From positions 1-16,019 of the forward strand of contig JAEOTI010000483.1 of assembly GCA_016839955.1 (NCBI GenBank): a stretch of DNA of 16,019 nt, written 5' to 3'. Shown piece by piece: positions 1 through 15,525 of this stretch. The stretch's first letter is position 1; each line of letters starts with the position of its first letter. The notes under the pieces were generated by a model that saw only the letters and a list, made by a program, of their open reading frames with translations, did no database searches and was not told the origin of the DNA. The DNA is from Candidatus Hodarchaeota archaeon. GTDB taxonomy: Archaea; Asgardarchaeota; Heimdallarchaeia; Hodarchaeales; YT1-057. Made by a program: the position numbers and the translations under genes.

Positions 1-2
1 GA

Positions 3-84
3 TGTGTTGAATTCTTGACGCAACAGGGGGATAGAAGAAGAAAAGCTATTTATTATCACGTCTGAAATAGAACTTCAAAATTAG
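3..84 (+). pseudogene. 3' end of an unidentified gene, probably frameshifted
   Basis: This is a possible gene tail cut by the left edge. Frame 3 reads CVEFLTQQG up to a run of five G (26-30). If one G is removed the reading continues in frame 1 as IEEEKLFIITSEIELQN and stops at 82-84. The joined sequence looks like an ordinary protein C-terminus, whereas the uninterrupted frame 3 ends in an arginine-rich tail at 63-65. No family can be named from this little sequence. The join is inference and the whole entry could be non-coding. Confidence 0.25.
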
Positions 85-118
85 TAATCACTAGAAAATA
101 TGGAACTGCGGTGATTAA

Positions 119-335
119 TTGAGTCCATCTGATTATACAACAGTTTCTATTCTAAAAATTCCTATACGAGAAAGTACAACAACGTATTGAGGGAACGGGT
201 TTTACATCAGTATCAAGATTTGTTGTATTCATCATTCGAGAGTTAGTTACAGAGCCAAAAAAAGAAAAAACACCTTTTTCAGAAGAAGATAAGAAACAAC
301 TCTTAGAAAAACTAGAAAAATTAGGTTATACATAA
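119..335 (+). pseudogene. Frameshifted ribbon-helix-helix (CopG-like) regulator, paralogue of the next gene
   Basis: From a TTG start at 119, preceded by GGTGAT (110-115), the frame reads MSPSDYTTVSILKI and is then lost at CCT (161). One base later (frame of 162) it reads LYEKVQQRIEGTGF and stays open to the stop at 333-335. Dropping one C gives a protein of about 71 residues: a basic/hydrophobic beta strand (TTVSI), two helices and a charged tail ending EKLEKLGYT. After correction it aligns residue for residue, without gaps through the RHH core, with the intact gene at 501-707, whose tail ends KRLERLGYL. This makes them tandem paralogues. RHH proteins bind DNA as dimers through the paired N-terminal strands. 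The single-base insertion is either real decay or a sequence error. Confidence 0.7.
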
Positions 336-460
336 AATAATTCACTATACAACCTTTATTCAATCTGTTTTTGACTAAATCAATAATAGATTAGATATCA
401 TAATAGTTAATTAACAATTATTTTTTCTTTGTATTAACCTTGAATTTCTATTTATGACTA

Positions 461-485
461 ATATCTAGAGATATTTTTCTAGAAA
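461..485. promoter_or_regulatory. Candidate tandem operator upstream of the RHH-sat operon
   Basis: TCTAGA occurs twice, at 464-469 and 478-483, exactly 14 bases apart. The first copy is the core of a 12-base palindrome with one mismatched pair (461-472). The second is the core of the perfect 10-base palindrome TTTCTAGAAA (476-485). The pair ends 15 bases before the GTG start of the RHH gene, where an autoregulatory RHH repressor could act. Binding is inferred; short AT-rich palindromes also occur by chance. Confidence 0.35.
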
Positions 486-500
486 TCGGCGGTTAGAACA

Positions 501-707
501 GTGTCAGAGCAAAGAAAAACAATTTTCATTTCCAAACAGCTGTATGAGCTAATAGAACGAAAAATAAATCACAATAATTTCAAGACGGTGGATAATTATG
601 TTGAACACCTACTTATGGAAGTCTTCCAGGCGGAAAGTACGGATGACTTTGACCCAGAGGAAGAGGAGGAAATAAAGAAACGTCTAGAAAGGCTAGGGTA
701 TTTGTAG
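501..707 (+). CDS. Ribbon-helix-helix (CopG-like) DNA-binding protein
   Basis: This is a 68-residue putative transcription regulator. Residues 6-11 (KTIFIS) fit the DNA-contacting beta strand of the RHH fold, and residues 14-26 and about 30-43 the two helices. A very acidic linker (DDFDPEEEEE) leads into a short charged helix ending KRLERLGYL. The length is normal for stand-alone RHH regulators. The start is GTG at 501, preceded by GGCGGTTAG-like sequence (488-496) as a weak ribosome site. The stop overlaps the GGAG ribosome site of sat, 13 bases before its ATG, so it is almost certainly cotranscribed with sat, the phosphatase-like gene and cysC and may control them. Two palindromes just upstream are possible autoregulatory sites. 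The decayed gene at 119-335 is its duplicate. The fold is well supported; the regulatory target is inference. Confidence 0.75.
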   Translation: MSEQRKTIFISKQLYELIERKINHNNFKTVDNYVEHLLMEVFQAESTDDFDPEEEEEIKKRLERLGYL

Positions 708-720
708 GAGCCTAATCATA

Positions 721-1866
721 ATGGTGAAACCTCATGGTGGACGATTAACGAATCGTCTCCTTTCCACTAATCAATTAGATAGGTTAAAAAAAGAAATTAA
801 CGAATTTGTACACGTACCTATTGACTCTGAAACTTATATTGAAATTGAGAACATTGCCATTGGAACATACAGCCCTTTAGAAGGGTATATGACTCAACAA
901 GAGTTTGGGTCAGTGGTAGAAACAAATCGCATCACAAATGGCTTAGCATGGACGATCCCGATAACATTCGACATAAGTGAAAGCCAAACTAATGGTCTGG
1001 AAAAAGGGAACCAAATTGTATTGACATATCAAGGGGAGCCAATCGCCCTTTTTGATATCGAAGACAGATTTAAACCAAATAAAAAACAATGGGCAGAAGT
1101 GGTATTTGGTACAACTGATGAGAACCATCCAGGTGTTCAAAGAATCTTCTCAAAGGAAGATATTTTGCTAGGGGGAGCCATCGATCTATTAAAACGGCCT
1201 AAAGTGCCATTCCCAGAAAATCGTTTGACCCCTAAAGAGACGCGAGTACTATTCAAGGCAAAGGGATGGAAAACAGTAGTGGGCTTTCAAACACGAAATG
1301 CTCCCCATATTGGACATGAGTACGTCCAAAAAGCAGCTTTAACCTTTGTCGATGGATTATTTATCAACCCAGTAATAGGGAAAAAGAAACCAGGAGATTT
1401 TAAAGACGAAGTGATCTTAAAGTCTTATCAAGCACTAATTGACCATTATTATTTACGGCAACGCGCGGTACTTGTCACACTCCTGACGGAAATGCGGTAT
1501 GCCGGGCCTAAAGAAGCCATCCACCATGCGATCATGCGAAAAAATTATGGGTGTACCCATTTCATTGTTGGTCGCGATCATGCAGGAGTGGGAGATTATT
1601 ATCCCCCCTTCGCCGCACAAGATATTTTTGATGAATTTCCCGACATCGGTATTGTCCCTCTCTTTTTCAGGTCTTTTTCACATTGTACAAAATGTGGATC
1701 TGTTGTGAATGAGAAAATATGTCCTCATCCCCCTGAACATCATATTAATTTCAGTGGAACGAAGATTAGACTGAGTTTAATTGAAGGAAATAGACCCCCA
1801 ACAGAGCAAATGCGACCTGAAGTAGCGGATATCATCCTCCAATATGAAAATCCATTTGTTGAATGA
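721..1866 (+). CDS. sat: ATP sulfurylase (sulfate adenylyltransferase)
   Basis: Catalyses ATP + sulfate to adenosine 5'-phosphosulfate (APS) + PPi in the cytosol, EC 2.7.7.4. The 381 residues match the single-chain Sat family (about 380 without a kinase domain). Visible motifs are QTRN (190-193) leading into the HxxH nucleotide-binding motif (H196, H199), GRDHAGVGDYY (284-294), and SGTKIR (345-350). Cysteines 322, 325 and 334 with nearby histidines fit the zinc site seen in some bacterial and archaeal Sat proteins. GGAG at 707-710 precedes the ATG by 10 bases. The stop overlaps an ATG of the next frame. With APS kinase two genes downstream and no APS or PAPS reductase or sulfate transporter in the window, the likely purpose is PAPS supply for sulfation rather than cysteine synthesis; that purpose is inference. 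Confidence 0.97.
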   Translation: MVKPHGGRLTNRLLSTNQLDRLKKEINEFVHVPIDSETYIEIENIAIGTYSPLEGYMTQQEFGSVVETNRITNGLAWTIPITFDISESQTNGLEKGNQIVLTYQGEPIALFDIEDRFKPNKKQWAEVVFGTTDENHPGVQRIFSKEDILLGGAIDLLKRPKVPFPENRLTPKETRVLFKAKGWKTVVGFQTRNAPHIGHEYVQKAALTFVDGLFINPVIGKKKPGDFKDEVILKSYQALIDHYYLRQRAVLVTLLTEMRYAGPKEAIHHAIMRKNYGCTHFIVGRDHAGVGDYYPPFAAQDIFDEFPDIGIVPLFFRSFSHCTKCGSVVNEKICPHPPEHHINFSGTKIRLSLIEGNRPPTEQMRPEVADIILQYENPFVE

Positions 1867-1886
1867 TGGAGATCTGTGGAAAGGAA

Positions 1887-3281
1887 ATGACAAAAAGAAA
1901 AATGCTAGTAATAGGTTTGGATTGTGCATCACCGAAGTTAGTATTTGAGGAATTTAAGAATGACCTACCAAACTTATCTAAGTTAACAGATAATGGACTC
2001 CACGGGAAGTTGAGGTCAACAATGCCTCCAATCACAGTTCCCGCCTGGATGGTAATGTTCACAGGGAAAAATCCAGGGAAACTCGGATTATATGGTTTTC
2101 GGCACCGAAAGAACAATTCTTATACCGACATTTGGATTGCAAGTCCTAAAAGTATACGAGAACAAAAGGTTTGGGATATTCTGGGAGATAGAGGTAGAAA
2201 ATCTTGTTTATTTGCAGTACCTCCAAATTACCCTCCGCAGGCCCTCAACGGATGTTCAGTAGGCTGTTTTTTAACCCCTAGTGCTAAAAGCAATTACACT
2301 TATCCTCTTGAATTAAAACAAGAATTAGAAAATAATTATGGCCCATATATACCTGATATCGATTACCGAAGCGGGAATCGAGATGAAATCAAAGAGCAGC
2401 TATTTAAAATGCTAGAAAATCACATGAACATGATTAAACACTTGATAAAAGAAAAAACATGGGATTTTTTTGCATTTGTAGAAATTGGAGTAGATCGTGT
2501 TCATCATGCTTTTTGGCGCTATTATGATGAAACACATCATATGCATGAATCTAATAGCAAATATAAGCGGGTCATTCGTGATTACTATAGTCGTGTGGAT
2601 CACCATATTGGTGAAATCATTAAACTAATAGATAATAACACCTACATTCTTGTAACTTCTGATCATGGCGTAAAAGCTATGCGTGGTGCTTTTTGCATAA
2701 ATGAATGGTTGATAACAGAAAAATATTTAAGACTCAAAGAAAATCCAAGCCAACAAATACCCCTCTCGAAGGCAAACATAGATTGGGCTAAGACCAAGGC
2801 ATGGGCGTGGGGAGGATATTACTCAAGGGTCTTTTTAAACGTTAAAGGACGAGAAAAAAACGGAAACATCGATCCTAAAGAATTTGATAAAGAACTTAAA
2901 AGGCTTAGGAAAAAATTGCTTAACCTAAAGGATAATGAAGGAAAGAAAATGAATAATATCGTCTTTCGACCAGAGGAGTATTATGATACTCCAACTGGGG
3001 ACTATCCTGATCTTATGGTAATATTTGATGATCTCAACTGGCGTGCTGCTGGAACTGTTGGTCATAACACCCTTCATCTTCTTGAGAATGATACTGGTTC
3101 AGATGATGCGATGCATGATTGGGATGGTATGTATATTTTATACGACCCCAAAGGTGAGATCACCCCATTTCAAATGGATGCAAAAATTGAGGATGTTGCT
3201 CCCACCATTCTGCATTTATTAGGCGAGGAAATCCCAAAAAATTTTGATGGAAATGTGATCGAACATGTCAAACGAACATAA
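1887..3281 (+). CDS. Alkaline-phosphatase-superfamily phosphodiesterase/pyrophosphatase-like protein
   Basis: A metal-dependent hydrolase of the type I phosphodiesterase/nucleotide pyrophosphatase branch of the alkaline phosphatase fold. From the chosen start the residues are: metal ligand D12 in VIGLDCA, nucleophile T50 in PPITVPAW, D203 and H207 in GVDRVHHAFW, D259 and H260 in TSDHG, and a late histidine in MHDWDG. No signal peptide is seen, so it is probably cytosolic. ATG 1887 has GGAAAGG upstream and starts the protein just before the first strand; ATG 1863, which overlaps the sat stop, would add eight residues. The 3' end overlaps cysC by 17 bases. Sitting between sat and cysC, it may act on a phosphosulfate-pathway nucleotide such as 3',5'-PAP, or on pyrophosphate-type by-products. 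The substrate is unknown and this is inference. Confidence 0.9.
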   Translation: MTKRKMLVIGLDCASPKLVFEEFKNDLPNLSKLTDNGLHGKLRSTMPPITVPAWMVMFTGKNPGKLGLYGFRHRKNNSYTDIWIASPKSIREQKVWDILGDRGRKSCLFAVPPNYPPQALNGCSVGCFLTPSAKSNYTYPLELKQELENNYGPYIPDIDYRSGNRDEIKEQLFKMLENHMNMIKHLIKEKTWDFFAFVEIGVDRVHHAFWRYYDETHHMHESNSKYKRVIRDYYSRVDHHIGEIIKLIDNNTYILVTSDHGVKAMRGAFCINEWLITEKYLRLKENPSQQIPLSKANIDWAKTKAWAWGGYYSRVFLNVKGREKNGNIDPKEFDKELKRLRKKLLNLKDNEGKKMNNIVFRPEEYYDTPTGDYPDLMVIFDDLNWRAAGTVGHNTLHLLENDTGSDDAMHDWDGMYILYDPKGEITPFQMDAKIEDVAPTILHLLGEEIPKNFDGNVIEHVKRT

Positions 3282-3798
3282 TGGATTTGTACTATGGTTT
3301 ACTGGGTTATCTGGGTCTGGAAAAAGTGAATTAGCTTCCAGAGTAGCAACGAAGCTAAAGAAAATAAATAAGAAGGTGGAAATCTTAGATGGCGATGTGG
3401 TACGCCAAAGTTTAACAAAGGATCTAGGATTTACCGAAGCAGATCGAAAAACAAATCTGGAGAGGGTCATATTCGTAGCCAAACTGCTCAGTAGAAATGG
3501 TATTGCCACATTGGTCTCATTTATTTCTCCATACATTGCATCCAGAGATGCAGCCCGAAGAACAACAACGAATTTCATTGAAATTTTTGTTAAATGTCCT
3601 GTGGAAGTGTGTATTGAGAGAGATGTGAAAGGACTGTACAAAAAAGCAATTACTGGAGAAATCGAGAATTTTACAGGTATTAGTCACCCCTATGAAGAAC
3701 CCCCAAACCCTGAAATTATTGTTGAGACAGATAAAGAAACACCTGAAGAAAGTGTAATAAAAATTATATATTTTTTAACTTCTAATGGGTTCTTGTAG
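3265..3798 (+). CDS. cysC: APS kinase (adenylylsulfate kinase)
   Basis: Phosphorylates APS at the 3' position with ATP to give PAPS, the universal sulfate donor (EC 2.7.1.25). The 177 residues are a normal single-domain length. Walker A is GLSGSGKS (14-21), DGD (42-44) follows strand 2, and ISPY (87-90) carries the family serine. FTGISHPYE (136-144) followed by PPNPE is the typical substrate lid and C-terminal signature. After ISPY most relatives have R; here it is I, a minor difference. The ATG at 3265 lies inside the end of the phosphatase-like gene, so translation is probably coupled. This completes the sat-cysC pair. No gene follows closely, so it is likely the last gene of the operon. 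Confidence 0.96.
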   Translation: MSNEHNGFVLWFTGLSGSGKSELASRVATKLKKINKKVEILDGDVVRQSLTKDLGFTEADRKTNLERVIFVAKLLSRNGIATLVSFISPYIASRDAARRTTTNFIEIFVKCPVEVCIERDVKGLYKKAITGEIENFTGISHPYEEPPNPEIIVETDKETPEESVIKIIYFLTSNGFL

Positions 3799-3829
3799 AG
3801 AAAATTGGGCTGTTTTATAGGGAATTTTT

Positions 3830-4335
3830 GTGATTAATGAGCACACTCCTAGCGACCTAAGAAATAAAGATCAATATCTTGCCTTAGTCGTTCTTCAAGA
3901 CTCATTCTATTCTTTTAACTAAGTAATTGCGTATTTTTTCAATACATAGTCAATTTTTGAACGACTGAAGTTAGAGATTGATAATATAGATTTTGTTGTG
4001 ATAGATACAATGCAATTGGTTATCCCAGTAAGAAGTGAAGAAACACACCAAAATTGTCGTTTGTTTAAATATTGAGGGGTACTTGTATTAAAAATAATTA
4101 TATAGATAATTTTTTACTTGGAAAATAACCCAAACCACTTATAACAACTGTTCATGACTATTTAGTTACTATTTTGAGTATGATTTAGACATTACAAGAT
4201 CCTAGCAATTTTTACTAATGAAGGAGATGAAAAAAAAATTGAAGCTATGCTATAAAAGGCAATTTCGCCAAAAGAATCTTAATCCAGAATTCATTCAGGA
4301 TTTAACAGTTAGAAAATACAATAATAAAGGGTAAA
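3830..4335 (+). pseudogene. Gene-poor stretch with traces of decayed coding sequence
   Basis: The 540 bases between cysC and the epimerase hold no intact gene. Protein-like fragments appear in order on the plus strand: from GTG 3830 a 30-codon frame with DLRNKDQYLALVVLQDSF; from 3950 a 41-codon frame with FERLKLEIDNIDFVVIDT that stops at 4073; around 4140-4180 a stretch reading ITTVHDYLVTILSMI; and around 4213-4335 two overlapping frames with TNEGDEKKIEAML and NPEFIQDLTVRKY. The fragments are separated by stops and frame changes. They may be remains of one gene of about 165 codons, of no family I recognise, or chance. No RNA gene or clear terminator was seen here. Confidence 0.3.
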
Positions 4336-4338
4336 ATC

Positions 4339-5450
4339 ATGAAAAAAAAGTATGTCTTAATTACAGCACCAGGCCTCAGATTATCAAGTCAGTTCCCATC
4401 ATTAGGGCCGCTAAATCTACAAGTGAAATTGAACTTATTCATATTTTTACAGGTCAACATTATGATTCATACTTAGCTGATATCTTTTTTCAAGCTTTAA
4501 AAGTTGAATCTCCAAAACATCTGTTAAATGTAAGGTCTGGATCTACTGACTATTATATCCGCATGATACTCGAAAAACTTGTTCCTCTTCTAAAAAATGA
4601 CAGAATTACAGGAGTTCTTATTCCTGGTGATACAAATTCGGCTTTTGCAGCTAGCCTTGCTGGTATGTTCCTTTCTCTTCCTGTTATACACGTTGAACCA
4701 GGATTGAGAAGTTATGACCTCATCATGCAAGAAGAAATAAATCGTCGCTTAATTGACCATGGTTCTTCTGTCCTTTTTGCACCCACAAAAAACGCTATAA
4801 AAAACCTAAATAATGAATCTGTTCTTGGAAATGTTGTTTTTTCGGGTGATACTATGTATGATCTTTTACTCGCTGAAAAAGAAAAAATAACAAGAAAATC
4901 ACTTTTCTCTCAAGCTGCAGACTCATATAACATCGTTGAGAAACAATACTCAATTATGACTGTACATAGACGTGAAAATGTTACAAACCTTGAAAAACTT
5001 AAACAGATAATAACAACGATGGGGCAGATAGATATTAAGATTATCTTTCCCATTCATCCAAATACCCGAAAAATACTTGAAAACTCGAAGATGAAAATAT
5101 CTAACAATATTAAATTAATAAACCCTATTTCCTATCAAGAATTTCTGAATCTTGTCGCATTTTCTGGATTAGTAATTACCTATTCAGGTGGGCTTCAAAA
5201 AGAAGCATACCTACTTAATGTGCCATGTATAACCCTTAGAAATTCCACAGAATGGGTTGAAACATTAGTTAATGATGCTAATAGGATAGTTGGAACCAAA
5301 CCTGCTCTTATTTCTCAAGCAATCGTTGATCTATTCAATAAAGAGCTTCATACAGATCGTTCTGTCTACGGTAACGGAAAGGCCGCTGAAATCATTGTTA
5401 AAGAACTTATTAGGAGCGATCCTGAAGTTCCAAGTGTTTCAGAACCATAA
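4339..5450 (+). CDS. wecB: UDP-N-acetylglucosamine 2-epimerase, frameshifted near the N-terminus
   Basis: Interconverts UDP-GlcNAc and UDP-ManNAc (EC 5.1.3.14 family, GT-B fold). ATG 4339 reads MKKKYVLITA and then leaves the family frame at 4366-4370. The other frame reads TRPQIIKSVPIIRAAK from 4368 and stays open to the TAA at 5448. Adding one base restores MKKKYVLITA-TRPQ and a protein of about 370 residues, the usual length. The only in-frame ATG after the shift is 4563, which would lose about 75 residues including the first Rossmann strand. Counting from 4563, family residues are present: D23 in PGDTNS, E45 in HVEPGLRS, EEINRR (57-62), H135 in TVHRREN, and SGGLQKEA (208-215), which binds UDP. 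The rest is clean, so a sequence error or very recent mutation is more likely than old decay. Confidence 0.88.
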
Positions 5451-5581
5451 AAGAAGAGTTAAATTCTTAGATGTTATATATAGTAAATAAACAGCATAGA
5501 TTCAAACATTGATAGAGCGTTTATACTCCCTTCAGAATCACGTCTGCTTTGCAATGGTTTAATAGAATTCATGTATAACAC

Positions 5582-5589
5582 TTATAAAG
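5582..5589 (+). promoter_or_regulatory. Candidate TATA box for the MaoC-type gene
   Basis: TTATAAAG lies about 40 bases before the ATG at 5627. An archaeal start about 26 bases downstream of its centre would leave a leader of roughly 15 bases containing GAGATGAT (5616-5623) as ribosome site. It is judged on sequence and spacing only. Confidence 0.35.
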
Positions 5590-5626
5590 AAAATTATCCA
5601 GCCTAGACATAAACTGAGATGATAAG

Positions 5627-6046
5627 ATGGTAGAGTTAAGTTATTCTGAGATCAAAGTTGGTCAAAAAGCCGAACTAAAACGAATTGTAACAGAGGATGA
5701 TATTGAAAAGTTTGCTGCTGTGAGCGGAGATCGAAATCCAATTCATCTAGATGAAGACTATGCGAAGAAAACATTCTTTCAAGGGAGAATAGCCCATGGA
5801 ATGCTCTCTGCAGCCTTTATCTCGGCAGTTCTCGCCAATAAGCTTCCAGGAAAGGGAAGTATATACTTAAACCAAGAATTAATATTTAAAAAACCTATAC
5901 GTATAGGAGATACTATTATTGTAGTTGTAGAAGTGATAGGAAAGGATGATGAAAAAAGACATGTTTTTTTGAAAACATCTTGCATTAATCAGAATGATGA
6001 AATGGTTGTAGATGGTAAAGCTGTGGTGAGGTTAATGGAAAAATAA
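5627..6046 (+). CDS. MaoC-type (R)-specific enoyl-CoA hydratase
   Basis: A single hot-dog domain of 139 residues, the length of PhaJ-type (R)-specific enoyl-CoA hydratases, which hydrate 2-enoyl-CoA to (R)-3-hydroxyacyl-CoA. The hydratase-2 motif is complete: SGDRNPIHLDEDYA (33-46) has catalytic D35 and H40, followed by GRIAHGML (53-60). No membrane or signal segment is seen. It stands alone on the plus strand and ends 9 bases from the end of the oppositely oriented RHH-nucleotidyltransferase gene. Among sugar genes its role is not obvious. One possibility is making (R)-3-hydroxyacyl chains for the LpxA-like acyltransferase at 14522-15388; an unrelated acyl-CoA role is equally possible. Family assignment is firm, substrate is not. 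Confidence 0.88.
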   Translation: MVELSYSEIKVGQKAELKRIVTEDDIEKFAAVSGDRNPIHLDEDYAKKTFFQGRIAHGMLSAAFISAVLANKLPGKGSIYLNQELIFKKPIRIGDTIIVVVEVIGKDDEKRHVFLKTSCINQNDEMVVDGKAVVRLMEK

Positions 6047-6055
6047 ATTTAATCC

Positions 6056-6895
6056 TCAATATCCTAGATATGTTTTCAGCATTGCTAGATCATTTAAGGT
6101 GTGAATATTAAACCATTCTCCTGCAATTGGGTATCCAAGCACTTTCTTTTGATCTATAAGTTTAGAGAGGAGCTCTATCTCGATCCTCCATTCCACAGGA
6201 CCAGGGGGAATATATTCAAATATTTGGGGAGATAAGATTCCAATCATGGTTTTAATTAAATGGCTTTTAGGTACTTTTGGTCTCTCTTCGTGTGAGATGA
6301 TACGAAAACCATCCAGTTCGACTACTCCCTTATATTTACTATCAAAAGAGGTTCGACTATAAATTGCAAATGTGGCAAGAGTGTCCTGTTGTTGATGAAA
6401 ATTATATAGATCTTGTAAATTAAAGTCAAAATATGTATCACAAGGAACAATCAGGAAATCATTTTTAATTTGACTTCTTGCTAGTTCCAATGTTTTGGCT
6501 GTTCCTAAAGATTTTGACTCTTCAATGAATTCCATTAATGCCAATATAGATTTATTAGGAGCGATAACAGAATATACCGCTTTAATTAAACTTGACTGAC
6601 CAACAATAATTATTTTTTGGAAACCAGCAGAAATGATTTTATCAATAATATACTCAATGAGAGTTTTTTCATTAATGGGAAGTAGAGGACGATAATCTGC
6701 AGTTTCAAGAGTACGTAATGAGTTGGGATTTCCTCCTGCCAGAATAATGGCGACTTTTTGTTTTTCTAGATGCAGTCTAACAAATTTTTCGATTGCTTCA
6801 CTGCGAGAGCGAATTAGTACCCCATCAATCTCAGTATCAATTTGTTTTAAGATATCTGGATCAATAGTAATAGTAATTCGTGTTTTAGTTGTCAT
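6056..6895 (-). CDS. RHH DNA-binding domain fused to a degenerate sugar nucleotidyltransferase domain
   Basis: A two-domain protein of 279 residues from ATG 6895. Residues 5-45 fit an RHH domain: strand TRITITI (5-11), helix from DPDILKQID, then RSRSEAIEKFVRLHL (29-43). From residue 48 the sequence follows NTP_transferase enzymes such as RmlA and GlmU: VAIILAGG, RPLLPI (69-74), PCDTYF with metal ligand D153, and GEWFNIHT (259-266). Key positions are changed. The GxGTR phosphate loop reads GNPNS with no deletion, so the catalytic Arg is Ser; the usual K of KPLLPI is R; and the second metal Asp (WxDxxT) is N263. A longer form from TTG 6943 is possible, but the RHH strand normally starts near the N-terminus. 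It follows ugd by 57 bases on the same strand. It may be a regulator that senses a nucleotide or sugar phosphate (inference). A weakly active enzyme remains possible. Confidence 0.85.
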   Translation of the reverse strand: MTTKTRITITIDPDILKQIDTEIDGVLIRSRSEAIEKFVRLHLEKQKVAIILAGGNPNSLRTLETADYRPLLPINEKTLIEYIIDKIISAGFQKIIIVGQSSLIKAVYSVIAPNKSILALMEFIEESKSLGTAKTLELARSQIKNDFLIVPCDTYFDFNLQDLYNFHQQQDTLATFAIYSRTSFDSKYKGVVELDGFRIISHEERPKVPKSHLIKTMIGILSPQIFEYIPPGPVEWRIEIELLSKLIDQKKVLGYPIAGEWFNIHTLNDLAMLKTYLGY

Positions 6896-6952
6896 AAAAA
6901 GACCCAAAGTGGGTATAAGTTTAATTGTTGCCTTTGTATGCAAAAATTAGTT

Positions 6953-8302
6953 TCACGAAATCTCCTTTCGACCGATACATTGAAGTTGCACCTGTCCATT
7001 GAATTCTGAAGGGTTATAGACCCGACGTCCATCTATAATAATTGGTGTTTTCATATATTTCTTGAAAACTTCTGGTTTTAATGCTGCAATGTTACCCCAT
7101 TCCGTCACAATAATAGCAGCATCAGCATTATCAAGAGCATCTTCAACTTTTTCTGCGTATAGAATTGAGTTACCTAAGATTTTCTGAGCTTCTTCTTCTG
7201 CAACTGGATCATAACCAATAACAATAGCTCTCTGCTTGAGTAAATGATGAGCTATTCGAATCGATGGTGCATATCTCATATCATCTGTACCTGGTTTGAA
7301 AGATAGTCCCAAAAGCGCCACTCGCTTATCTGTCAAATCTGGAATAACTTCTTGAAGTAATTTTACAGCATGTATTGCTTGCTGTTTATTTATTTCCAAA
7401 ACAGCAGGAAACAAACGTGTGTTATATCCATTAGATCTAGTAAAGGCTACAATAGCGTTTACATCCTTCGGGAAACAAGAACCGCCAAAACCAACCCCAG
7501 GGCTTAAAAATTTTTCATTAATTCGATAATCAAGTCCAACAGCTTTTAAGACTTGGATAATGTCCACACCTGGGACAAGTTCGGCAATACGTGACATTTC
7601 ATTAGCATAAGAGATTTTAGTTGAGAGCAAACAATTATTTCCATATTTGACAAGCTCTGCAGTTTGTAAATTCATCCGAAGTATGGGAGAATTCTCCAGA
7701 TGAATTCCATAAAATCTTTCATACAATTTTTGAAGGATATCTCCCGATTTAGTATCCAATTCGCCAATAACAACTCTATCAGGTTCCAATGTATCCTGAA
7801 TAGATCTTCCTTCTGCTAAAAACTCGGGTTGCATACATAAACCAAAATCTTTTCCCATAATTTTTCCTGATTCTTCTTCAACTAACTTCCCTACCAAATT
7901 TTCAGTAGTTCCTGGGACCACCGTTGAACGGACAACAATGAGGTGATAACCATTTTTTTCTTTGAGAATTTGGCCAATCTGGCGGGCTGTTTGTTTAATA
8001 TATTTCAGATCAATGCTGTTGTCTTCTCTCATAGGGGTACCAACGGCAATCATACTGATATCTGATTCTAGAACTGCTTCCTCCCGTCCAAGTACGCATT
8101 TAAAATTCCCAGAATCTAGTGCTTCTTTAAGCAGCTCCGACAATCCATTTTCAAAGAATGGAGATATTCCTTGGTTGATTTGCTCATATTTTTTCTGGTT
8201 AAATGTCGAATTTATTGTTTTAATTCCTCTAATGGCAAAACAACAACCACAAACCAAACCAATGAACCCAGTACCATGTATTGCAACCCTGTATTCTTTC
8301 AT
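6953..8302 (-). CDS. ugd: UDP-glucose 6-dehydrogenase-type nucleotide-sugar dehydrogenase
   Basis: Oxidises C6 of a UDP-hexose to the uronic acid in two NAD-dependent steps. From ATG 8302 there are 449 residues. The N-terminal Rossmann motif is GTGFIGLV, QPEFLAEG lies near residue 160, K219 and N223 sit in VKYGNN, and catalytic C276 is in GFGGSCFPKD. That motif is the UDP-glucose dehydrogenase type; UDP-GlcNAc and UDP-ManNAc dehydrogenases usually read GGHC. UDP-glucuronate is therefore the most likely product. GTG 8309-8311 would add three residues. After the second beta strand the NAD-binding Asp is missing (TINSTFNQ), but the +2 frame over 8202-8210 reads FDI, suggesting two compensating one-base indels. 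The gene is followed on its strand by the RHH-nucleotidyltransferase. Confidence 0.93.
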   Translation of the reverse strand: MKEYRVAIHGTGFIGLVCGCCFAIRGIKTINSTFNQKKYEQINQGISPFFENGLSELLKEALDSGNFKCVLGREEAVLESDISMIAVGTPMREDNSIDLKYIKQTARQIGQILKEKNGYHLIVVRSTVVPGTTENLVGKLVEEESGKIMGKDFGLCMQPEFLAEGRSIQDTLEPDRVVIGELDTKSGDILQKLYERFYGIHLENSPILRMNLQTAELVKYGNNCLLSTKISYANEMSRIAELVPGVDIIQVLKAVGLDYRINEKFLSPGVGFGGSCFPKDVNAIVAFTRSNGYNTRLFPAVLEINKQQAIHAVKLLQEVIPDLTDKRVALLGLSFKPGTDDMRYAPSIRIAHHLLKQRAIVIGYDPVAEEEAQKILGNSILYAEKVEDALDNADAAIIVTEWGNIAALKPEVFKKYMKTPIIIDGRRVYNPSEFNGQVQLQCIGRKEIS

Positions 8303-8477
8303 TTGATTCACTTACCACTAAAATTAAAAAATATCGTTTTCAAGCTATCAAAGAGACTAGTATTTATCTTATACCTATCATATTTAATACTACTATGTCA
8401 TACTGCTTAATATTCTGGTCAGTCAAATGAGACAATCTGTAAGAAATTCACAAAATCCGAGTTCTAGGGTTTTCATT

Positions 8478-8520
8478 AAAAAAAATACCTATCAGAACAA
8501 TATTAATGTCTTTTGATAGG
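8478..8520 (-). terminator. Hairpin plus U8 terminator after the GT4 gene
   Basis: On the minus strand a 10-pair stem (one G-U) is formed by 8511-8520 and 8488-8497 with a 13-base loop. It is followed after TA by eight consecutive T (complement of 8478-8485). The stem is CCTATCAAAA pairing with TTCTGATAGG. It lies 88 bases past the GT4 stop and about 175 bases before the ugd start, so it would separate the two minus-strand genes. A poly-U tract alone can terminate archaeal transcription; the hairpin makes this a stronger call. Confidence 0.6.
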
Positions 8521-8608
8521 ATTAAATAATGTTTATTTCTATGATATGGCATAATTAAGGTAAATATTGGACAAAAAACTATAGTATAAATAGTTGATAT
8601 GAGTAGTA

Positions 8609-9793
8609 TCATGTTACATTTTCGTATAGTGTAATCAATCTTTGTTCGTCTTTTTTAGCTGAATTTAGATCCAGTATTTTTTGAGCACGTAAAGTGATCT
8701 CTTTATCAGACATTCTTAATGACTGTTTGATTGCTCTAGCTAGACTAATTTTAGAGCCTGATTTGTAATAAGGAAGATTAGATTGAGTTAAGTATATGAT
8801 ATTTTCTAATAAAGGAACTACAGTTCTTTTATTGTAAGCAAGGTATTCAAATAATTTGTTGGGAGTTGCATGTCTATATACTGGGACATTGCTAGCTAAG
8901 ACCAAACACACGTCAGCGAGCTTAATATATTCTTTAATTTCATTTGGTGGAACAAAACCAACTAAACTGACTTTATTTGATAATCGCATACTTTTTATAT
9001 GTATTTTTATTTTTTCAAGATAAGGCCCGTCTCCTACTAAGACCAAATGATATTTTGGTGAAATTTGTTCTTTAAGTAAAGCTAAAACTGTATCTAAGTC
9101 TCTCATTTTTCCAATTAAACCTTGGTACAACAAAACTATATCTGTATCAGAGAAATTCAGTTTTGATCGATTGATATTTGCTGAAATGCCTTCTTCCTCC
9201 AATTCCTCATTAGCATATCCATAGGTATTATTTCCAACTACAACAGTTCGCTTTATTTTAGCTTTCTCATAATCTTCTTTTTCAATTTGATTTATGACTA
9301 TTACTCCATCAACTAGCTTAGCAATCATATTCTCAAAAGCTTTTAACATTTTATAGACAATTGATTTTTCTGACAACTGTAGATGGGAAATCACAGATAG
9401 GGCGAATGGTTCGTGTCTATCAAGGATGATCCTTTTTTGGAAGAATAAGTTAAAAAATTTTACAGGAATGACAAGAATATCTGGTGGATTATGAATATGG
9501 AAAACATCAGTCTTATGGAACTGTTTATTGAATAATAGAATGGCAAACAATTGAAGTGTAAAATAGAGATAAGACATGAGGTAGCCAACAGGAGAGTTCT
9601 TATTCTTAAATCTACTATCAAAAAGTCGAAATACTTCAATATTCTTCGTAAGTTTCTCTCTATTTTTTAAATCTAGTTTTGAAAAAGAAATGATATTGAT
9701 CTTATAACCGTGTTTTGATAATGCTAGAGCCTCTCGATGGACTCTTACGTCTTTTAGATATTCACTTAATACAATCATTGTTACTATTGGCAT
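8609..9793 (-). CDS. GT4-family glycosyltransferase
   Basis: A GT-B fold retaining glycosyltransferase of 394 residues, normal for GT4. The N-terminal domain has VHREALAL (18-25) and the acceptor-side segment HIHNPPD (99-105). The donor-binding half carries LLYQGLIG (221-228), LVGDGPY (252-258), VGFVP (278-282) and PNKLFEYLA (311-319), where E316 is the final acid of the EX7E-type motif. There is no cleavable signal. A hydrophobic stretch near 76-88 could help membrane association. It would transfer a sugar from a nucleotide sugar to a lipid-linked or glycan acceptor. Donor and acceptor cannot be read from the sequence. It is transcribed away from the aminotransferase gene and ends before the terminator at 8478-8520, so it is probably a single-gene unit. 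Confidence 0.9.
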   Translation of the reverse strand: MPIVTMIVLSEYLKDVRVHREALALSKHGYKINIISFSKLDLKNREKLTKNIEVFRLFDSRFKNKNSPVGYLMSYLYFTLQLFAILLFNKQFHKTDVFHIHNPPDILVIPVKFFNLFFQKRIILDRHEPFALSVISHLQLSEKSIVYKMLKAFENMIAKLVDGVIVINQIEKEDYEKAKIKRTVVVGNNTYGYANEELEEEGISANINRSKLNFSDTDIVLLYQGLIGKMRDLDTVLALLKEQISPKYHLVLVGDGPYLEKIKIHIKSMRLSNKVSLVGFVPPNEIKEYIKLADVCLVLASNVPVYRHATPNKLFEYLAYNKRTVVPLLENIIYLTQSNLPYYKSGSKISLARAIKQSLRMSDKEITLRAQKILDLNSAKKDEQRLITLYENVT

Positions 9794-9997
9794 TTATTCA
9801 TCATTTTCATGTTTTTTTTTAAAAGTTTAAAATTTTCCCTTATCCTCTTCATCCAAAATTATAAAAATTTTCTTTTTTTTTTCAAAAACAGTATGTTGAT
9901 TCTTTAAGGAAATAAAAGTATTATCAGGAATGGTTAATTGAATAGTTTAGTAAAATATTTGTTGTTTTACTTATTTCTTCATTATGCAATCGATGAG

Positions 9998-10014
9998 GGG
10001 CCAAGATTGGGCCA
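9998..10014. promoter_or_regulatory. GGGCCA direct repeat, one helical turn apart, upstream of a TATA box
   Basis: GGGCCA occurs at 9998-10003 and 10009-10014, 11 bases apart. The inner ten bases, CCAAGATTGG, are also an inverted repeat. This is by far the most GC-rich patch in an otherwise very AT-rich spacer. It lies 32 bases upstream of the TATA box at 10047. Repeats on one face of the helix fit a dimer- or tetramer-binding regulator such as an RHH protein. Function is inferred. Confidence 0.4.
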
Positions 10015-10046
10015 GTATTAGGATATTTTTTAATGCCTTCGGGAGA

Positions 10047-10054
10047 TATAAATA
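10047..10054 (+). promoter_or_regulatory. Archaeal TATA box for the aminotransferase-oxidoreductase operon
   Basis: TATAAATA is a near-ideal archaeal TATA element, preceded by purine-rich GGGAGA in the BRE position. A start site near 10077 would give a leader of about 37 bases containing the GGAGAT ribosome site before TTG 10115. Confidence 0.55.
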
Positions 10055-10114
10055 GTTCACCCTTAAACTTTCAAAACCGATTTTAATTTTCATATCCTAA
10101 TAGGAGATCAAATT

Positions 10115-11224
10115 TTGGTTGAGGATGAAAATTCTATTGATAGAACTCGAGTTCATTTGGGTGAAGGAGAGTTAAAAGCTGTTCACAGAGTTTTTAGGAG
10201 TGGCATTTTTGTCAAAGGCCCAGAAGTTGAAAGCTTTGAGAAAGAATTTGCTCAATATTGTGGAGCGCGTCATGGAATTGCATTGAACTCGGGGACATCA
10301 GCATTATTCCTTTCGTTAATTTCCATAGGCCTTAAACCAAATGATGAGGTAATTACTGTTCCAAATACTTTTGTAGCAACAGTCAACGCTATAGTCCACG
10401 CTGGTGGAATTCCACGATTAATTGACATCGATCAAGAAACGATGAATATTAATGTAAATGATTTGAAGGAAAAGATCACACCAAACACGAAGGTGATCCT
10501 CCCTGTTCATCTGTATGGACTTCCTGTAGATATGAATCCGATAACCGAATTGGCCGATAAAAAAGATATAGTAATCCTAGAAGATGCATGTCAAGCTCAT
10601 GGCGCTGATTACAGAGGAAAAAAAGTGGGTTCTTTAGGAGATATTGCCTCGTTTTCGTTTTATCCTACAAAAAACCTCACTGTGGGTGGGGATGGAGGAA
10701 TGATTTTAACAAATGATAAAGAAAAAGCAGATAAGATAAGAATGCTGAGAGATCACGGAAGAAGATCAACTTATGAATATGAATGTTTTGGGTATAACTT
10801 CCGGTTATCAGAAATCTTAGGTGCAATCGGACGCTATAGGTTGGGTAAATTGGACTCAGATATCTCTAAACGGCGAAAAATAGCAAAAGTTTACCAGGAA
10901 CTCCTTTCAGATCTCCCTCAAGTTAAATTACCTATTGATCCTTCCTATGCAAAACATGTATATTATCTATATGTTCCTAAGTTTGAGGAACGCAATAAAA
11001 TAAAGGCTTATCTTCAAAAGAAAGGTATCAAGACTGCAATTGACTATCCAAGTACAGTCAATCAAATGAAACACTATCAGGAGCATTATAATTTCAAAGA
11101 TGGAATGTTCCCTGTGGCTGAAGCTCTTACAAAAGAGATTCTCGCTCTTCCAATGTATCCAGAATTAGAAGATAGTAAAGTTGAAAGGATATCAGCTGAA
11201 ATTCATAATTTTTATAGGAAGTAA
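10115..11224 (+). CDS. DegT/DnrJ/EryC1-family PLP sugar aminotransferase
   Basis: Transfers an amino group, usually from glutamate, to a keto nucleotide sugar. The 369 residues are normal for the family. Visible are NSGTSAL (58-64), which holds the PLP phosphate, EDACQAHG with D157 and Q160 contacting the ring, and the Schiff-base lysine K186 in FYPTKNLTVGGDGG. The start is TTG 10115, eight bases after GGAG (10103-10106); there is no usable ATG nearby. Five bases separate it from the Gfo/Idh oxidoreductase, which would make the 3-keto substrate. This pairing is known from WbpB/WbpE (UDP-GlcNAcA to the 3-amino form) and GnnA/GnnB (UDP-GlcNAc to UDP-GlcNAc3N). A C3 aminotransferase is the best inference; C4 activity cannot be excluded. 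Confidence 0.95.
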   Translation: MVEDENSIDRTRVHLGEGELKAVHRVFRSGIFVKGPEVESFEKEFAQYCGARHGIALNSGTSALFLSLISIGLKPNDEVITVPNTFVATVNAIVHAGGIPRLIDIDQETMNINVNDLKEKITPNTKVILPVHLYGLPVDMNPITELADKKDIVILEDACQAHGADYRGKKVGSLGDIASFSFYPTKNLTVGGDGGMILTNDKEKADKIRMLRDHGRRSTYEYECFGYNFRLSEILGAIGRYRLGKLDSDISKRRKIAKVYQELLSDLPQVKLPIDPSYAKHVYYLYVPKFEERNKIKAYLQKKGIKTAIDYPSTVNQMKHYQEHYNFKDGMFPVAEALTKEILALPMYPELEDSKVERISAEIHNFYRK

Positions 11225-11229
11225 AGGAA

Positions 11230-12255
11230 ATGAAAGTTGCATTAATTGGTGTTGGACATTGGGGACGAAATCATCTCAAAATTTATTCTGAATTAAAAGA
11301 AAAAGAGATAATTGAAGATATAATTATATTTGACAAAATTACAGCTCGTGCTAAACGACTTGCTGATATTTTTCAAGTAAAACATGAAAAAAGTATTCGT
11401 AAAATTCTTCAGAATAAAGAAATCATGATGGCAAGCATTGTGACACCATCACCATCTCATTACGAACTTGCTATGAAATTTCTTGAGGCAGGAAAAGATA
11501 TTTTAGTTGAAAAACCATTAGCCCTCACTTCGAAAGAAAGCTGGGAACTTGTTCGACGATCAACAGAGTTGAATCGCATTCTATTGCCTGGTCATCTGTT
11601 TCGGTTTCATAATGCCCTTCTAGAACTAAAAAAAGTAGTAAAACGGGGAGATTTAGGAAAACCTATACAAATAAATATAGAAAGAACAGCCTTTAATGTT
11701 CCTCGTGAGGATATGGGTGTTCTTCATGCCCTAGCGATTCACGATGTAGATATATCTTGTTTTTTACTTGACCAAGAATACCCTAAAGATATATCTGCAT
11801 ATGCAACATCATATTACCGTAAATATCCTGATGAAACCGCCACGATATTTTTAGATTTTGATGACGGAACAGCTTCAATTTTAAATGAAAGCTGGTTGAA
11901 TCCAATCAATGGGAAAATAAGAAAACTATTACTTATCGGAACCAGAGGATCTGCACAAATTAATTTTCTTGTCCCAGATAGTATAGAACTAATTGATACA
12001 TATATTGATAATAATGAAGGAAAAACACTAAATGTAGTTAGAGAGGGAACACGTGAGAAAAGGGTTAAACCTAGCGAGCCTCTACGGAATGAAATTATCC
12101 ATTTCGTAAATAGCTCATTGAATGGCAATGAAGTAGCTATTCCTGCTGAAATAGGAGCTCGGGCTGTTGAGATGATCGAGATTGCTCTTGAATCAATAAA
12201 AACCAAAAAAACTGTGAATGTAGAGAAATATTTCCAGCAAAATTCCTCTGGTTAG
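11230..12255 (+). CDS. Gfo/Idh/MocA-family nucleotide-sugar oxidoreductase (WbpB/GnnA-like)
   Basis: NAD(P)-dependent oxidation of a sugar hydroxyl to a ketone. The Rossmann motif GVGHWG is at 7-12, the catalytic EKP is at 94-96 (K95), and IHDVD (170-174) supplies the histidine and aspartates of the active site. The 341 residues are typical. AAAGGA sits directly before the ATG, and the gene starts five bases after the aminotransferase, so they form one operon. The partner aminotransferase points to 3-keto nucleotide-sugar formation. The dehydrogenase in this window is of the UDP-glucose type, so the substrate may be UDP-GlcNAc itself (GnnA-like) rather than UDP-GlcNAcA (WbpB-like). That choice is inference. 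Confidence 0.93.
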   Translation: MKVALIGVGHWGRNHLKIYSELKEKEIIEDIIIFDKITARAKRLADIFQVKHEKSIRKILQNKEIMMASIVTPSPSHYELAMKFLEAGKDILVEKPLALTSKESWELVRRSTELNRILLPGHLFRFHNALLELKKVVKRGDLGKPIQINIERTAFNVPREDMGVLHALAIHDVDISCFLLDQEYPKDISAYATSYYRKYPDETATIFLDFDDGTASILNESWLNPINGKIRKLLLIGTRGSAQINFLVPDSIELIDTYIDNNEGKTLNVVREGTREKRVKPSEPLRNEIIHFVNSSLNGNEVAIPAEIGARAVEMIEIALESIKTKKTVNVEKYFQQNSSG

Positions 12256-12400
12256 ACTTTAATACCTTAAATCTGGAGATTCAGGACTAATGGGGGAAAA
12301 ACTCTCTTACCAATTGGAGATTTTTAATCGATACTACTCATTGTCAGGGCGAAATACTGAATAGTGGCTAATGTGTTATTTAATTACACATTCTGTTATA

Positions 12401-12431
12401 TTTAAATACTAAAAACAAAAATTTAGTGTTT
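12401..12431 (+). promoter_or_regulatory. TATA-like element with overlapping inverted repeat before the amidohydrolase gene
   Basis: TTTAAATA (12401-12408) is a plausible archaeal TATA box. It overlaps the left arm of an inverted repeat: AAATACTAAA (12404-12413) against TTTAGTGTTT (12422-12431), with one G-T pair. An operator overlapping the TATA box would block transcription. However, the start codon is about 145 bases away, so the leader would be long. The rest of 12256-12532 shows nothing clear. Confidence 0.3.
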
Positions 12432-12553
12432 TTGATGCACCACTTCAGAAAGCAACACACTTTTCAGTAAAGAACAAGAAATTTTTTCAAAGAATCAATT
12501 ATATGTACGCACTATAACGAGAAAGATTTCCATTGAAATTAGGGTTCTTAAGA

Positions 12554-13312
12554 ATGGAGATTATTGATATTCATGTTCATATGAATTCTCAGTTTCAAGA
12601 TATTTTTGAATTTAATTGGAATGATCTCTTAAAATATCTAGAACATGTAGAACAAGTAGGATTAATGCCAATCCTTACAAGAAATTCAAATTCTATTGAG
12701 ATAAATAAAGATTTTTTTCAAAAAATTACTGAAATACCGAATTCACAAATTATTTCCTATTTTTGGGGTCACCCAGATCAGGTGACTCTTTCAATTGTGA
12801 CGGAGTTTAAACCAGATGGATTGAAATTTCATCCAAGCATTGGTGAGGAAAATTTATTAAATTGCCCTCATGTAGTAGAAATTGCTGAGAAACTCAAAAT
12901 TCCATTGTTAGTTCATTGTGGAAGAAATGAAAGAAGTCTAATGAGATTCATTCTTTCTACAATGGAAATATATACCGATGTGAAGATAATAGGGGCACAT
13001 CTAGGAGGTTTAGCGACCCAGCTCATCTTAAGAGCTTTAAATGAAATTAAAACATCACAGATTGATAAAGGGAACCTGTATTTAGATACATCAGGAGTTA
13101 TGAATCCAAAATTATTAAGATTGGCCCAGGAAACTGTAACAGCAGATAATATTCTATATGGTACTGATATCCCCTTTCATGATCCCCAAATATCTTTATA
13201 TACAATCTCTTTAGCTTTTCCTGATCGGGAAATAAGACAGAAAGTGCTTTACTCCAATGCACAAAGATTATTTAATATTAAATCCCCCAAAAAAAAGAAA
13301 TTGATAACATAA
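12554..13312 (+). CDS. Metal-dependent amidohydrolase (Amidohydro_2-type TIM barrel)
   Basis: A 252-residue member of the amidohydrolase superfamily. The metal-binding set is present: DIHVHM at the N-terminus (H7, H9), GLKFHPS with K91, LLVHCGR with H121, IGAHLGG with H149, and LYGTDIPFHDP with D205. This pattern fits the PF04909 group of small hydrolases and decarboxylases. ATG 12554 starts immediately before the first strand, as is usual; TTG 12533 would add seven residues. The C-terminus ends in a lysine-rich tail. It stands alone, with 298 bases upstream and 264 downstream, on the same strand as the sugar genes. Deacetylation or hydrolysis of a sugar intermediate is possible but nothing in the sequence fixes the substrate. 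Confidence 0.85.
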   Translation: MEIIDIHVHMNSQFQDIFEFNWNDLLKYLEHVEQVGLMPILTRNSNSIEINKDFFQKITEIPNSQIISYFWGHPDQVTLSIVTEFKPDGLKFHPSIGEENLLNCPHVVEIAEKLKIPLLVHCGRNERSLMRFILSTMEIYTDVKIIGAHLGGLATQLILRALNEIKTSQIDKGNLYLDTSGVMNPKLLRLAQETVTADNILYGTDIPFHDPQISLYTISLAFPDREIRQKVLYSNAQRLFNIKSPKKKKLIT

Positions 13313-13520
13313 AGGTCTTTTCAACAAATCCACTCTGCATTTAGAATTAATAAAATTCGAACTATGAAAAATACTGACAATTGAAGAGCAATTTCATTGA
13401 GCGTATAATGAGATTTCTTTTTTATCGGTTTTATAAGAATTTAAGATCAAGTGACCGCCATGAAAGGATTATAGCATAAGCTTTAATGATAAACTGAGAA
13501 AGGATTAAAAATCAATATGA

Positions 13521-13533
13521 TAGGGTGACCCTA
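13521..13533. promoter_or_regulatory. Inverted repeat upstream of the GT2 gene
   Basis: TAGGGT-G-ACCCTA is a perfect six-base inverted repeat around one base, 43 bases before the GT2 start. It is a candidate operator. GGAG at 13562-13565, 11 bases before ATG 13577, is the ribosome site. The rest of 13313-13576 shows no gene or clear TATA box. Confidence 0.3.
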
Positions 13534-13576
13534 AGCTAAAATCGCTCACTCAATATCTTATGGAGCCTGTATATCC

Positions 13577-14521
13577 ATGTATCGCGAGCATAAAACTGGC
13601 CTAATTATCCCTGCTTATAACGAAGAGAAATTAATAATACCGACCCTGAAAGGAGTTCCTGAATATTTCGATCACATTATCTTGGTTGAAGATAAAAGTA
13701 TAGATTCAACAAAAAGTATAGTTGAAGAATATTCTAAAAAAGATCCAAGAATAAAACTAGTATTACACGATAGAAACAGGGGAGTTGGTGCAGGGGTAGT
13801 TACAGGCATTGAAGAAGCGTTAAAATTAGATCTAGAAGTTGTACTCGCAGTAGGGGGAGATAATCAAATGGATCTATCTGAAGCTAAGAAATTTCTTGAT
13901 CCTCTTGTTGATGGAAGAGCTGATTATGTAAAAGGAAATCGGTTTATGTCTAAAGGAAACGCGTTTAGAGATATGCCCAAACAACGTCTTTTTGGTAATA
14001 TATCACTATCACTATTAACAAGGATGTTTTCAGGATATTGGAGGATTTTTGATACCCAAGATGGATATATTGGTTTTTCAAGAGAGCTTATGGAGACAAC
14101 TGATTGGAGTAATTATTGGAAGAGATACGGATTTGTCTCAGATTTTATCATTCGTTTTTCTGGTGAGAAAAGGCGCGTAATGGATGTCCCAAGGCGAGCT
14201 ATTTATTTGAAAGGAGTAAAACAGACTCAAATTAAAGTAAGAAGATATTTTTTTATGATTTATTATGTTATGTTGATTGCGTTATTGTCTCGAATCAAAA
14301 AGAGATATTTTTCCGTATTTTCACTAGGAGGAATGCTCTTAACGTTAGGTGTATTTGGATATCTATTTTCATTGCTTAATTTATCAGTTCCTCCCTTTAC
14401 TGAATATATAAACTTTTTTACTTCCTCAATACCTTTTGTAATATTTTTCCTATACGATATTATAACAAATCTCAAGTACCAGCCAGAGTGGCTCAAGTAC
14501 TACAAATTGAAAGACTATTAA
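13577..14521 (+). CDS. GT2-family glycosyltransferase with C-terminal membrane segments (dolichyl-phosphate sugar synthase-like)
   Basis: Residues 7-225 form a GT-A domain: IIPAYNEE (10-17), VEDKSIDST (37-45) with the nucleotide-binding acid, GGDNQMD (93-99) in the DxD position, and QDGYIGF (161-167). Hydrophobic stretches around 225-238, 247-267 and 283-297 would anchor it to the membrane. The domain order is that of polyprenyl-phosphate mannose or glucose synthases and their archaeal relatives, which load a sugar on a lipid phosphate at the cytosolic face. The 314 residues fit. The LpxA-like gene begins directly after its stop, so the two are translationally linked. Sugar donor unknown. Confidence 0.93.
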   Translation: MYREHKTGLIIPAYNEEKLIIPTLKGVPEYFDHIILVEDKSIDSTKSIVEEYSKKDPRIKLVLHDRNRGVGAGVVTGIEEALKLDLEVVLAVGGDNQMDLSEAKKFLDPLVDGRADYVKGNRFMSKGNAFRDMPKQRLFGNISLSLLTRMFSGYWRIFDTQDGYIGFSRELMETTDWSNYWKRYGFVSDFIIRFSGEKRRVMDVPRRAIYLKGVKQTQIKVRRYFFMIYYVMLIALLSRIKKRYFSVFSLGGMLLTLGVFGYLFSLLNLSVPPFTEYINFFTSSIPFVIFFLYDIITNLKYQPEWLKYYKLKDY

Positions 14522-15388: not shown

Positions 15389-15525
15389 GAATATATTCAA
15401 ATATGATTTAGAATCAGAGTGATTGAGCAGATTAAAGTTGTGAAAGGATGAATAAAACAAGATTATTTTTCAGGTTTAGTTTCAGGCTACTTTTATGAGA
15501 GGTGTTCAACATTATAAGGAAGGAC

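Follow-up and report, generated by a model that had tools for sequence, protein, structure and literature searches.

An RHH domain fused to a nucleotidyltransferase fold with an altered catalytic pocket: a putative nucleotide-sugar-sensing regulator in archaea

To our knowledge little is understood of the control of surface-glycan precursors in DPANN and Asgard archaea, and a gene in a 16,019 nt stretch of Candidatus Hodarchaeota archaeon DNA (GCA_016839955.1, contig JAEOTI010000483.1, positions 1-16,019 of the forward strand, here called the window) raises the question of what an RHH DNA-binding domain does when joined to a sugar nucleotidyltransferase (NTase). The gene (6056..6895, minus strand, ATG at 6895) encodes 279 residues, and its homologues are similar in length and start. 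Residues 1-45 (6761..6895, minus strand) match Pfam RHH_1 with a score of 20.7 against a cut-off of 20.5, and are NikR-like in profile comparison (E 1e-7), with R6, T8 and T10 as the strand residues. The C-terminal nickel-binding domain of NikR is absent from the rest of the protein; residues 48-279 (6059..6754, minus strand) instead match PF00483 (NTP_transferase) by both profile and fold. The fold is complete, and a chain of the GMPPA/GMPPB complex is among the best structure matches of the predicted model, a monomer. An earlier note, made from the DNA letters, had read an RHH N-terminus running into an NTP_transferase fold, and the Pfam, NikR and fold matches bear this out. None of the best 25 of 32 matched NCBIfam families reaches its curated cut-off, the highest score among them being 83.1 bits against 292.1. 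The fusion is no assembly artefact, as 14 other full-length homologues (78-87% identity) have the same architecture, which also recurs in relatives from several phyla. We did not find it described in the literature searched, which excludes most subscription papers.

The canonical Arg, Lys and Asp residues have catalytic roles in sugar nucleotidyltransferases, and the window protein lacks most of this set. In a gap-free alignment against GMPPB the Arg of GxGTR is replaced by S59 (codon 6719..6721) and the catalytic Lys by R69 (6689..6691); one of the two metal-binding Asp is kept as D153 (6437..6439), and the second has become N263 (6107..6109), turning WxDxG into WxNxH (all codons on the minus strand). 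These are the changes that the earlier note had picked out. R69, D153 and N263 are invariant in 60 of 60 close relatives, which rules out sequencing error as their source. Position 59 is occupied by Ser (19), Lys (16), Asn (13), Arg (2) or other residues (10), and the co-occurrence of substitutions that the note had proposed to look for, a non-Arg residue at 59 with R69, D153 and N263, is found in 58 of the 60. Other residues distinguish the clade: P57 and K134 (each 55/60) and H265 (59/60) stand where 41 relatives without the RHH part mostly have Gly, and P151 (60/60) likewise differs from those relatives, which retain Lys at position 69 in 39 cases and Asp at position 263 in 38. Since the substitutions and P57, K134, P151 and H265 are nearly fixed, the altered pocket is, to judge by these sequences, maintained, and its positions rank among the most conserved of the NTase domain.

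This conservation bears on an alternative in which the protein is a DNA-binding regulator whose NTase fold is an oligomerisation scaffold, with no sensing and with repression set by the level of the protein. The repeat sites and gene order described below would require no ligand. A scaffold, however, would need none of the pocket motifs, R69, N263, H265 and K134, that are conserved so strongly here, and we regard this alternative as unlikely. Ligand sensing by the window protein is, in our judgement, probable.

The architecture is common in DPANN archaea; in two of their phyla, more than a third of the genomes sampled have it. Whole-genome searches with a 59-row profile (cut-off 1e-28 for the phyla of the Hodarchaeote and Aenigmatarchaeote, 1e-34 for those of the Woesearchaeote and Micrarchaeote) gave matches in 72 of 145 genomes of the Aenigmatarchaeote's phylum, 61 reaching into the RHH part by a hand count of rows; in 109 of 279 of the Woesearchaeote's, nearly all among the matches listed reaching the RHH part; and in 23 of 146 of the Micrarchaeote's, 22 of them doing so. 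In the Hodarchaeote's own phylum 27 of 227 genomes have matches, and only those of G001, G002, G014 and G177 extend to where the RHH part begins. RHH-bearing relatives also occur in bacteria, among them one named Microgenomates protein (P0076).

The alignments took the first 91 of 120 listed homologues. Among 227 aligned rows, which may include the same protein from two sources, the RHH part is present in 183. In this group 108 rows lack R59, K69 and D263 but have D153, and five have all four residues intact. The 44 rows lacking the RHH part have R59 in 40, K69 in 40 and D263 in 38. In a second, hold-out set of RHH-NTases (see below) all four residues are present in 16 of 56. Since such intact fusions exist, the presence of an RHH part does not imply a dead enzyme, and by its residues the family would span possibly bifunctional to probably non-catalytic members. 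The earlier note had held that homologues combining the RHH part with an intact Arg/Lys/Asp set would refute a ligand sensor; such proteins do occur in the wider family, the 60 close relatives are substituted, and the intact members do not refute the sensor reading for the window clade. In quick trees of 106 and 110 representatives, which have many weak branches and of which only the latter omits the four catalytic columns, the window protein sits in a large group of substituted RHH proteins (59 and 47 rows respectively, the 47 including one fragment without the RHH part), with intact, partly intact and RHH-less proteins intermixed across the rest of both. On the 110-representative tree the state of the K69/D153/D263 set, retained or not, must have changed at least 12 times; the tree gives no direction for these changes.

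Several genes around the fusion are of nucleotide-sugar type. Directly upstream and co-directional is a nucleotide-sugar (UDP-glucose/UDP-HexNAc type) dehydrogenase (6953..8311, minus strand, with an alternative ATG at 8302), assigned by Pfam and by NCBIfam TIGR03026 above its cut-off, which ends 57 nt before the RHH-NTase ATG. The window and loci L001 and L002 share this order, the RHH-NTase following the dehydrogenase in the same direction with 12-66 nt from ORF to ORF, as an operon would. Farther upstream on the same strand lies a group 1 glycosyltransferase (8609..9793). On the plus strand an aminotransferase and a Gfo/Idh-type UDP-GlcNAc 3-dehydrogenase-like gene (10115..12255), both below curated cut-offs, add to the nucleotide-sugar context, as does a UDP-GlcNAc 2-epimerase of WecB type (4563..5450). 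The match of the epimerase begins at profile position 74 of 366 and no plus-strand ORF of at least 80 aa precedes it at 3799-4562, so the gene (3799-5450) may be broken or the sequence frameshifted.

In the relatives, the RHH-NTase gene is typically transcribed away from its upstream neighbour: 76 of 99 are divergent, against 157 of 460 other genes (of at least 150 aa, in the larger loci; Fisher p 6e-15, kinship ignored) and, for relatives in which an RHH part was not detected, 18 of 68. The hold-out genes are divergent in 39 of 56 cases. Among 75 of the 76 divergent neighbours in the first set (one in L005 was omitted, being the same gene as one in L176) UDP-glucose/GDP-mannose dehydrogenases are commonest (21), and there are seven epimerases/dehydratases, four NTP_transferases, three dTDP-sugar isomerases and six proteasome subunits. 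Not all RHH-NTases adjoin sugar genes, as the six proteasome subunits all come from a single clade, L149-L157. These Woesearchaeote-phylum RHH-NTases, with the strand KxRxSFT, have as neighbours conserved genes of proteasome-subunit, FttA-like beta-CASP and Lon type, and six of their nine upstream regions contain none of the three half-sites defined below.

In L006, L008, L009, L010, L162, L171 and L172 another NTase gene is adjacent or one gene away, giving possible enzyme/regulator pairs. Such pairs would suit a second alternative, that the protein is a non-catalytic partner subunit regulating another NTase or the dehydrogenase by contact, its RHH part being a dimerisation module. The structure match to the GMPPA/GMPPB complex points the same way, and GMPPA, in the accessible part of PMC11228364, is a non-catalytic NTase that still binds a nucleotide sugar (GDP-mannose) and inhibits GMPPB. 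Against this, the window ORFs of at least 70 aa contain no second NTase-profile match, and a partner subunit leaves unexplained the repeats that track the RHH strand residues; we give this alternative very little weight.

Inspection of the upstream regions by eye revealed repeats: GTATTAC/GTAATAC in branch A, CTTACC-N2-TATCCTACTTTAT in the Woesearchaeote phylum and TCATACTTTATCATAC in Micrarchaeotes. As the half-site pattern drawn from the first set of regions, T[ACG][TCA]TAC, was chosen by eye on the same sequences, it was tested in several ways. In the 67 of 76 divergent regions whose gap measures 25-260 nt it occurs at 25 per kb, compared with 4 per kb in 74 divergent regions of other genes in the same loci; two or more sites are present in 50/67 and 4/74 respectively, and two or more of the plain TNNTAC in 52/67 and 11/74. 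The 99 upstream regions together hold 152 half-sites, against a mean of 32 and a maximum of 50 in dinucleotide shuffles. P-values throughout overstate the evidence, since the sequences are related and the half-site was picked by eye from the first set. Promoter TATA boxes are not the source of the signal, as TTTATA (8.7 and 8.8 per kb, controls second) and TTTAAA (12.5 and 10.5) show. The commonest distances between half-sites are 10-11 and 20-22 bp, and a few are 32-33 bp; an extra peak at 1 bp comes from half-sites being read on both strands.

At genome scale, 15 of 15 genomes have exactly one copy of a 21-bp element (up to two mismatches), always upstream of the RHH-NTase gene, the reversed pattern being absent from the same 15; the genomes were selected for carrying the gene, and some of them supplied the pattern. 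The exact palindrome GTAATACN2-6GTATTAC occurs in only three of 12 genomes; two have it at an RHH-NTase gene, and the third is G005. There a perfect GTAATAC-N3-GTATTAC palindrome at G005:C16:21701-21717, on a contig other than that of the G005 RHH-NTase genes, is a possible second target.

RHH-NTases with all four catalytic residues mostly bear half-sites of the same kind as substituted ones. Of the five among the 99 genes of the first set, three have a half-site; in the hold-out set 16 of 16 have one and 12 have at least two, against at most 10 and five in shuffles. This speaks for a third alternative, a bifunctional trigger enzyme in which an active nucleotidyltransferase would also bind its own promoter; possible examples make up 5/99 and 16/56 of the two sets. 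For the window protein itself we consider this highly unlikely, as in all 60 close relatives the Lys is replaced by Arg and the Asp by Asn.

The window's own candidate operator (8374..8403, minus strand) lies in the promoter of the dehydrogenase/RHH-NTase operon; at the aligned place L001 has three TATGAT repeats and L002 a related element. It consists of GTATGA, a degenerate unit and ATATGAT at 10-bp steps, followed by ATAAGATAAA. The window reads GTATGACATAGTAGTATTAAATATGATAGG from 8403 to 8374, then TATAAGATAAA where L001 has AATAAGATAAA; the L001 operon promoter has GTATGATTTAGTATGATCGAGTATGAT directly after TTATATA. The best 44-bp identities are 33 for window and L001 and 32 for L001 and L002 (each reached by 0/500 shuffles), and 28 for window and L002, which at 25/500 shuffles is not beyond chance. 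With a single exact GTATGA, an ATATGAT and a degenerate middle unit, the window copy is weaker than that of L001. No half-site pair is present in the gap directly upstream of the window RHH-NTase (6896-6952), the element being one gene farther up. The pattern GTATGATN4TATGAT has no exact match in the 3.6 Mb of G001, from which L001 comes, except at the promoter of the orthologous operon. With one mismatch allowed there are 19 matches in G001 (reversed control 6) and 13 in G002; as the G002 control gives 11, that genome shows next to no excess, and its own element was not recovered by the pattern.

We compared the RHH strand residues at positions 6, 8 and 10 (numbered as in the window protein) with the dominant half-site of each region, ties going to the first half-site listed. 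An RSS strand goes with TATTAC in 11 of 11 cases and RST with TATTAC in 18 of 32 (none in 13, TCYTAC in one); KST goes with TCYTAC in 24 of 28 (none in four), RTT with TCATAC in 15 of 20 (TCYTAC in three, TATTAC in one, none in one), and KAS with TCATAC in five of six; two further genes have other triples. The association was reached by none of 20000 label shuffles, and by none with 50 representatives below 60% identity; with 22 representatives below 45% identity it was reached by seven of 20000. The window's promoter region, with one TCATAC and one TC[CT]TAC half-site, scores against the RTT rule through the tie rule.

The rule was written down before 59 distinct unseen loci, of 60 asked for, were examined as a hold-out. 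Three had no RHH gene by the criterion used to detect one, leaving 56 genes, whose closeness to first-set proteins was disregarded. Prediction was right for 32, wrong for 15 and lacking for two, and seven had no listed half-site; shuffled regions gave 3.5 right on average and at most eight. Ties account for six of the 15 wrong and two of the 32 right. Where a site was present KST was right in nine of 10 (four of 14 had none) and RST, in small numbers, in four of five, two by tie (two of seven had none). RTT was right in 19 of 32, the others having TATTAC (12) or TCYTAC (one), and five of these 13 are ties. The result is mixed but above chance, and the rule is partly confirmed. Outside the set from which the rule was made, structure 1q5v, which we take to be E. 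coli NikR, has an RTT strand (RVTIT). The E. coli NikR operator is given in the accessible part of PMC7055735 as GTATGA-N16-TCATAC, and the RTT/TCATAC rule agrees with this strand and half-site.

Two RHH-NTase paralogues lie about 2-9 kb apart in L164, L145, L146, L147 and L176; in the first four of these the two differ in strand residues and half-sites, and may be insulated regulator pairs.

The earlier note's proposal that the protein is a transcription factor is thus strengthened by the divergent gene order, the periodic repeats and the half-sites that track strand residues; its proposal of a ligand sensor agrees with the conservation of the altered pocket and with the nucleotide-sugar genes nearby. 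The repeats ahead of many relatives suggest that the protein switches adjacent sugar genes, and it may respond to what those genes make. For the window protein we favour, with fair confidence, a local transcriptional regulator, most likely a repressor, whose altered NTase fold probably senses a nucleotide sugar; binding to DNA at half-sites of the RHH-NTase type is the part we consider very likely. Domain make-up, fold, conserved substitutions, gene order, repeats and the covariation of half-site with strand residue are computed directly, and from them we infer DNA binding, oligomeric state, repression, the ligand and its effect. RHH dimers, joined through the NTase-fold domain, would bind arrays of 6-7 bp half-sites (TATGAT/TCATAC type in the window) spaced 10-11 bp apart along one face of the helix in the core promoter of the operon encoding the RHH-NTase itself and the UDP-sugar dehydrogenase. 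Given archaeal promoter layout, the closeness of the sites to a TATA-like box suggests steric repression. The NTase-fold domain, lacking the nucleotide-transfer groups (Arg, Lys and one metal Asp) and keeping its strongly conserved pocket, would probably bind a nucleotide sugar as a feedback signal that alters DNA binding. A UDP-sugar of the pathway is our best guess, with UDP-HexNAc or UDP-uronate likeliest because the window neighbours (dehydrogenase, WecB-type, 3-dehydrogenase-like, aminotransferase) make UDP-sugars. The outcome would be negative autoregulation together with control of the adjoining sugar genes.

Parts of this organisation have counterparts in known systems. NikR, a nickel-responsive RHH repressor, has the same RHH sequence type and R-x-T-x-T strand, with a sensor domain after the RHH; that sensor is a tetrameric metal-binding domain, whereas the second domain here has a nucleotidyltransferase fold. 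The GTATGA/TCATAC half-site is also shared, although the NikR half-sites, as far as the accessible part of PMC7055735 gives them, form a single pair 16 bp apart and those of RHH-NTases recur every 10-11 bp. Compared with the enzymes RmlA, GalU, GlmU and GMPPB (PF00483), the window protein has the Arg, Lys and second Asp replaced and an RHH part added. GMPPA and GalF are degenerate NTases retained as regulators, as the window protein would be; their target is a sister enzyme, and they are not known to contain a DNA-binding domain. In ROK repressors and B. subtilis PurR we see enzyme folds turned into ligand sensors of repressors, with folds and DNA-binding domains that differ from those of RHH-NTases. 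NadR and BirA keep their activity, in folds unlike that of RHH-NTases, and intact RHH-NTase relatives would be the matching case. Both are listed, in the accessible part of PMC8249747, among trigger enzymes, which join a metabolic enzyme to a DNA-binding domain. As far as our searches show, the novelty lies in RHH-NTases pairing a degenerate-NTase sensor with a DNA-binding enzyme, in a series whose half-sites follow a readable rule.

Extended to the whole family, these observations allow a reading to which we give even chances: in a widespread archaeal family an NTase became joined to an RHH domain to give bifunctional enzyme-repressors, several losses of the catalytic residues then left proteins devoted to sensing nucleotide sugars, which repress adjoining UDP-sugar genes and the promoter of their own gene, and three strand residues set the half-site. 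The sites of members with and without the catalytic residues are alike in kind, so that the passage from enzyme to sensor is open to direct comparison. If this reading is true, a single living series displays both a DNA-recognition code and an enzyme-to-sensor path, and a nucleotide-sugar-sensing repressor would supply regulator, target and site at once. The strand-residue rule also yields predictions for other RHH proteins.

Elsewhere in the window a 68-aa ORF with a GTG start (501-707, plus strand) and a C-terminal EEEIKKRLERLGYL tail has no Pfam match above cut-off and looks by eye like a small DNA-binding protein; a tail similar to EEEIKKRLERLGYL can be read by eye farther up, at about 16-330. 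The ORF lies upstream of an apparent operon beside the glycan locus (721-3798, plus strand), encoding a sulfate adenylyltransferase, a type I phosphodiesterase/nucleotide-pyrophosphatase-type protein and an adenylylsulfate kinase, a set consistent with provision of PAPS for surface-glycan sulfation.
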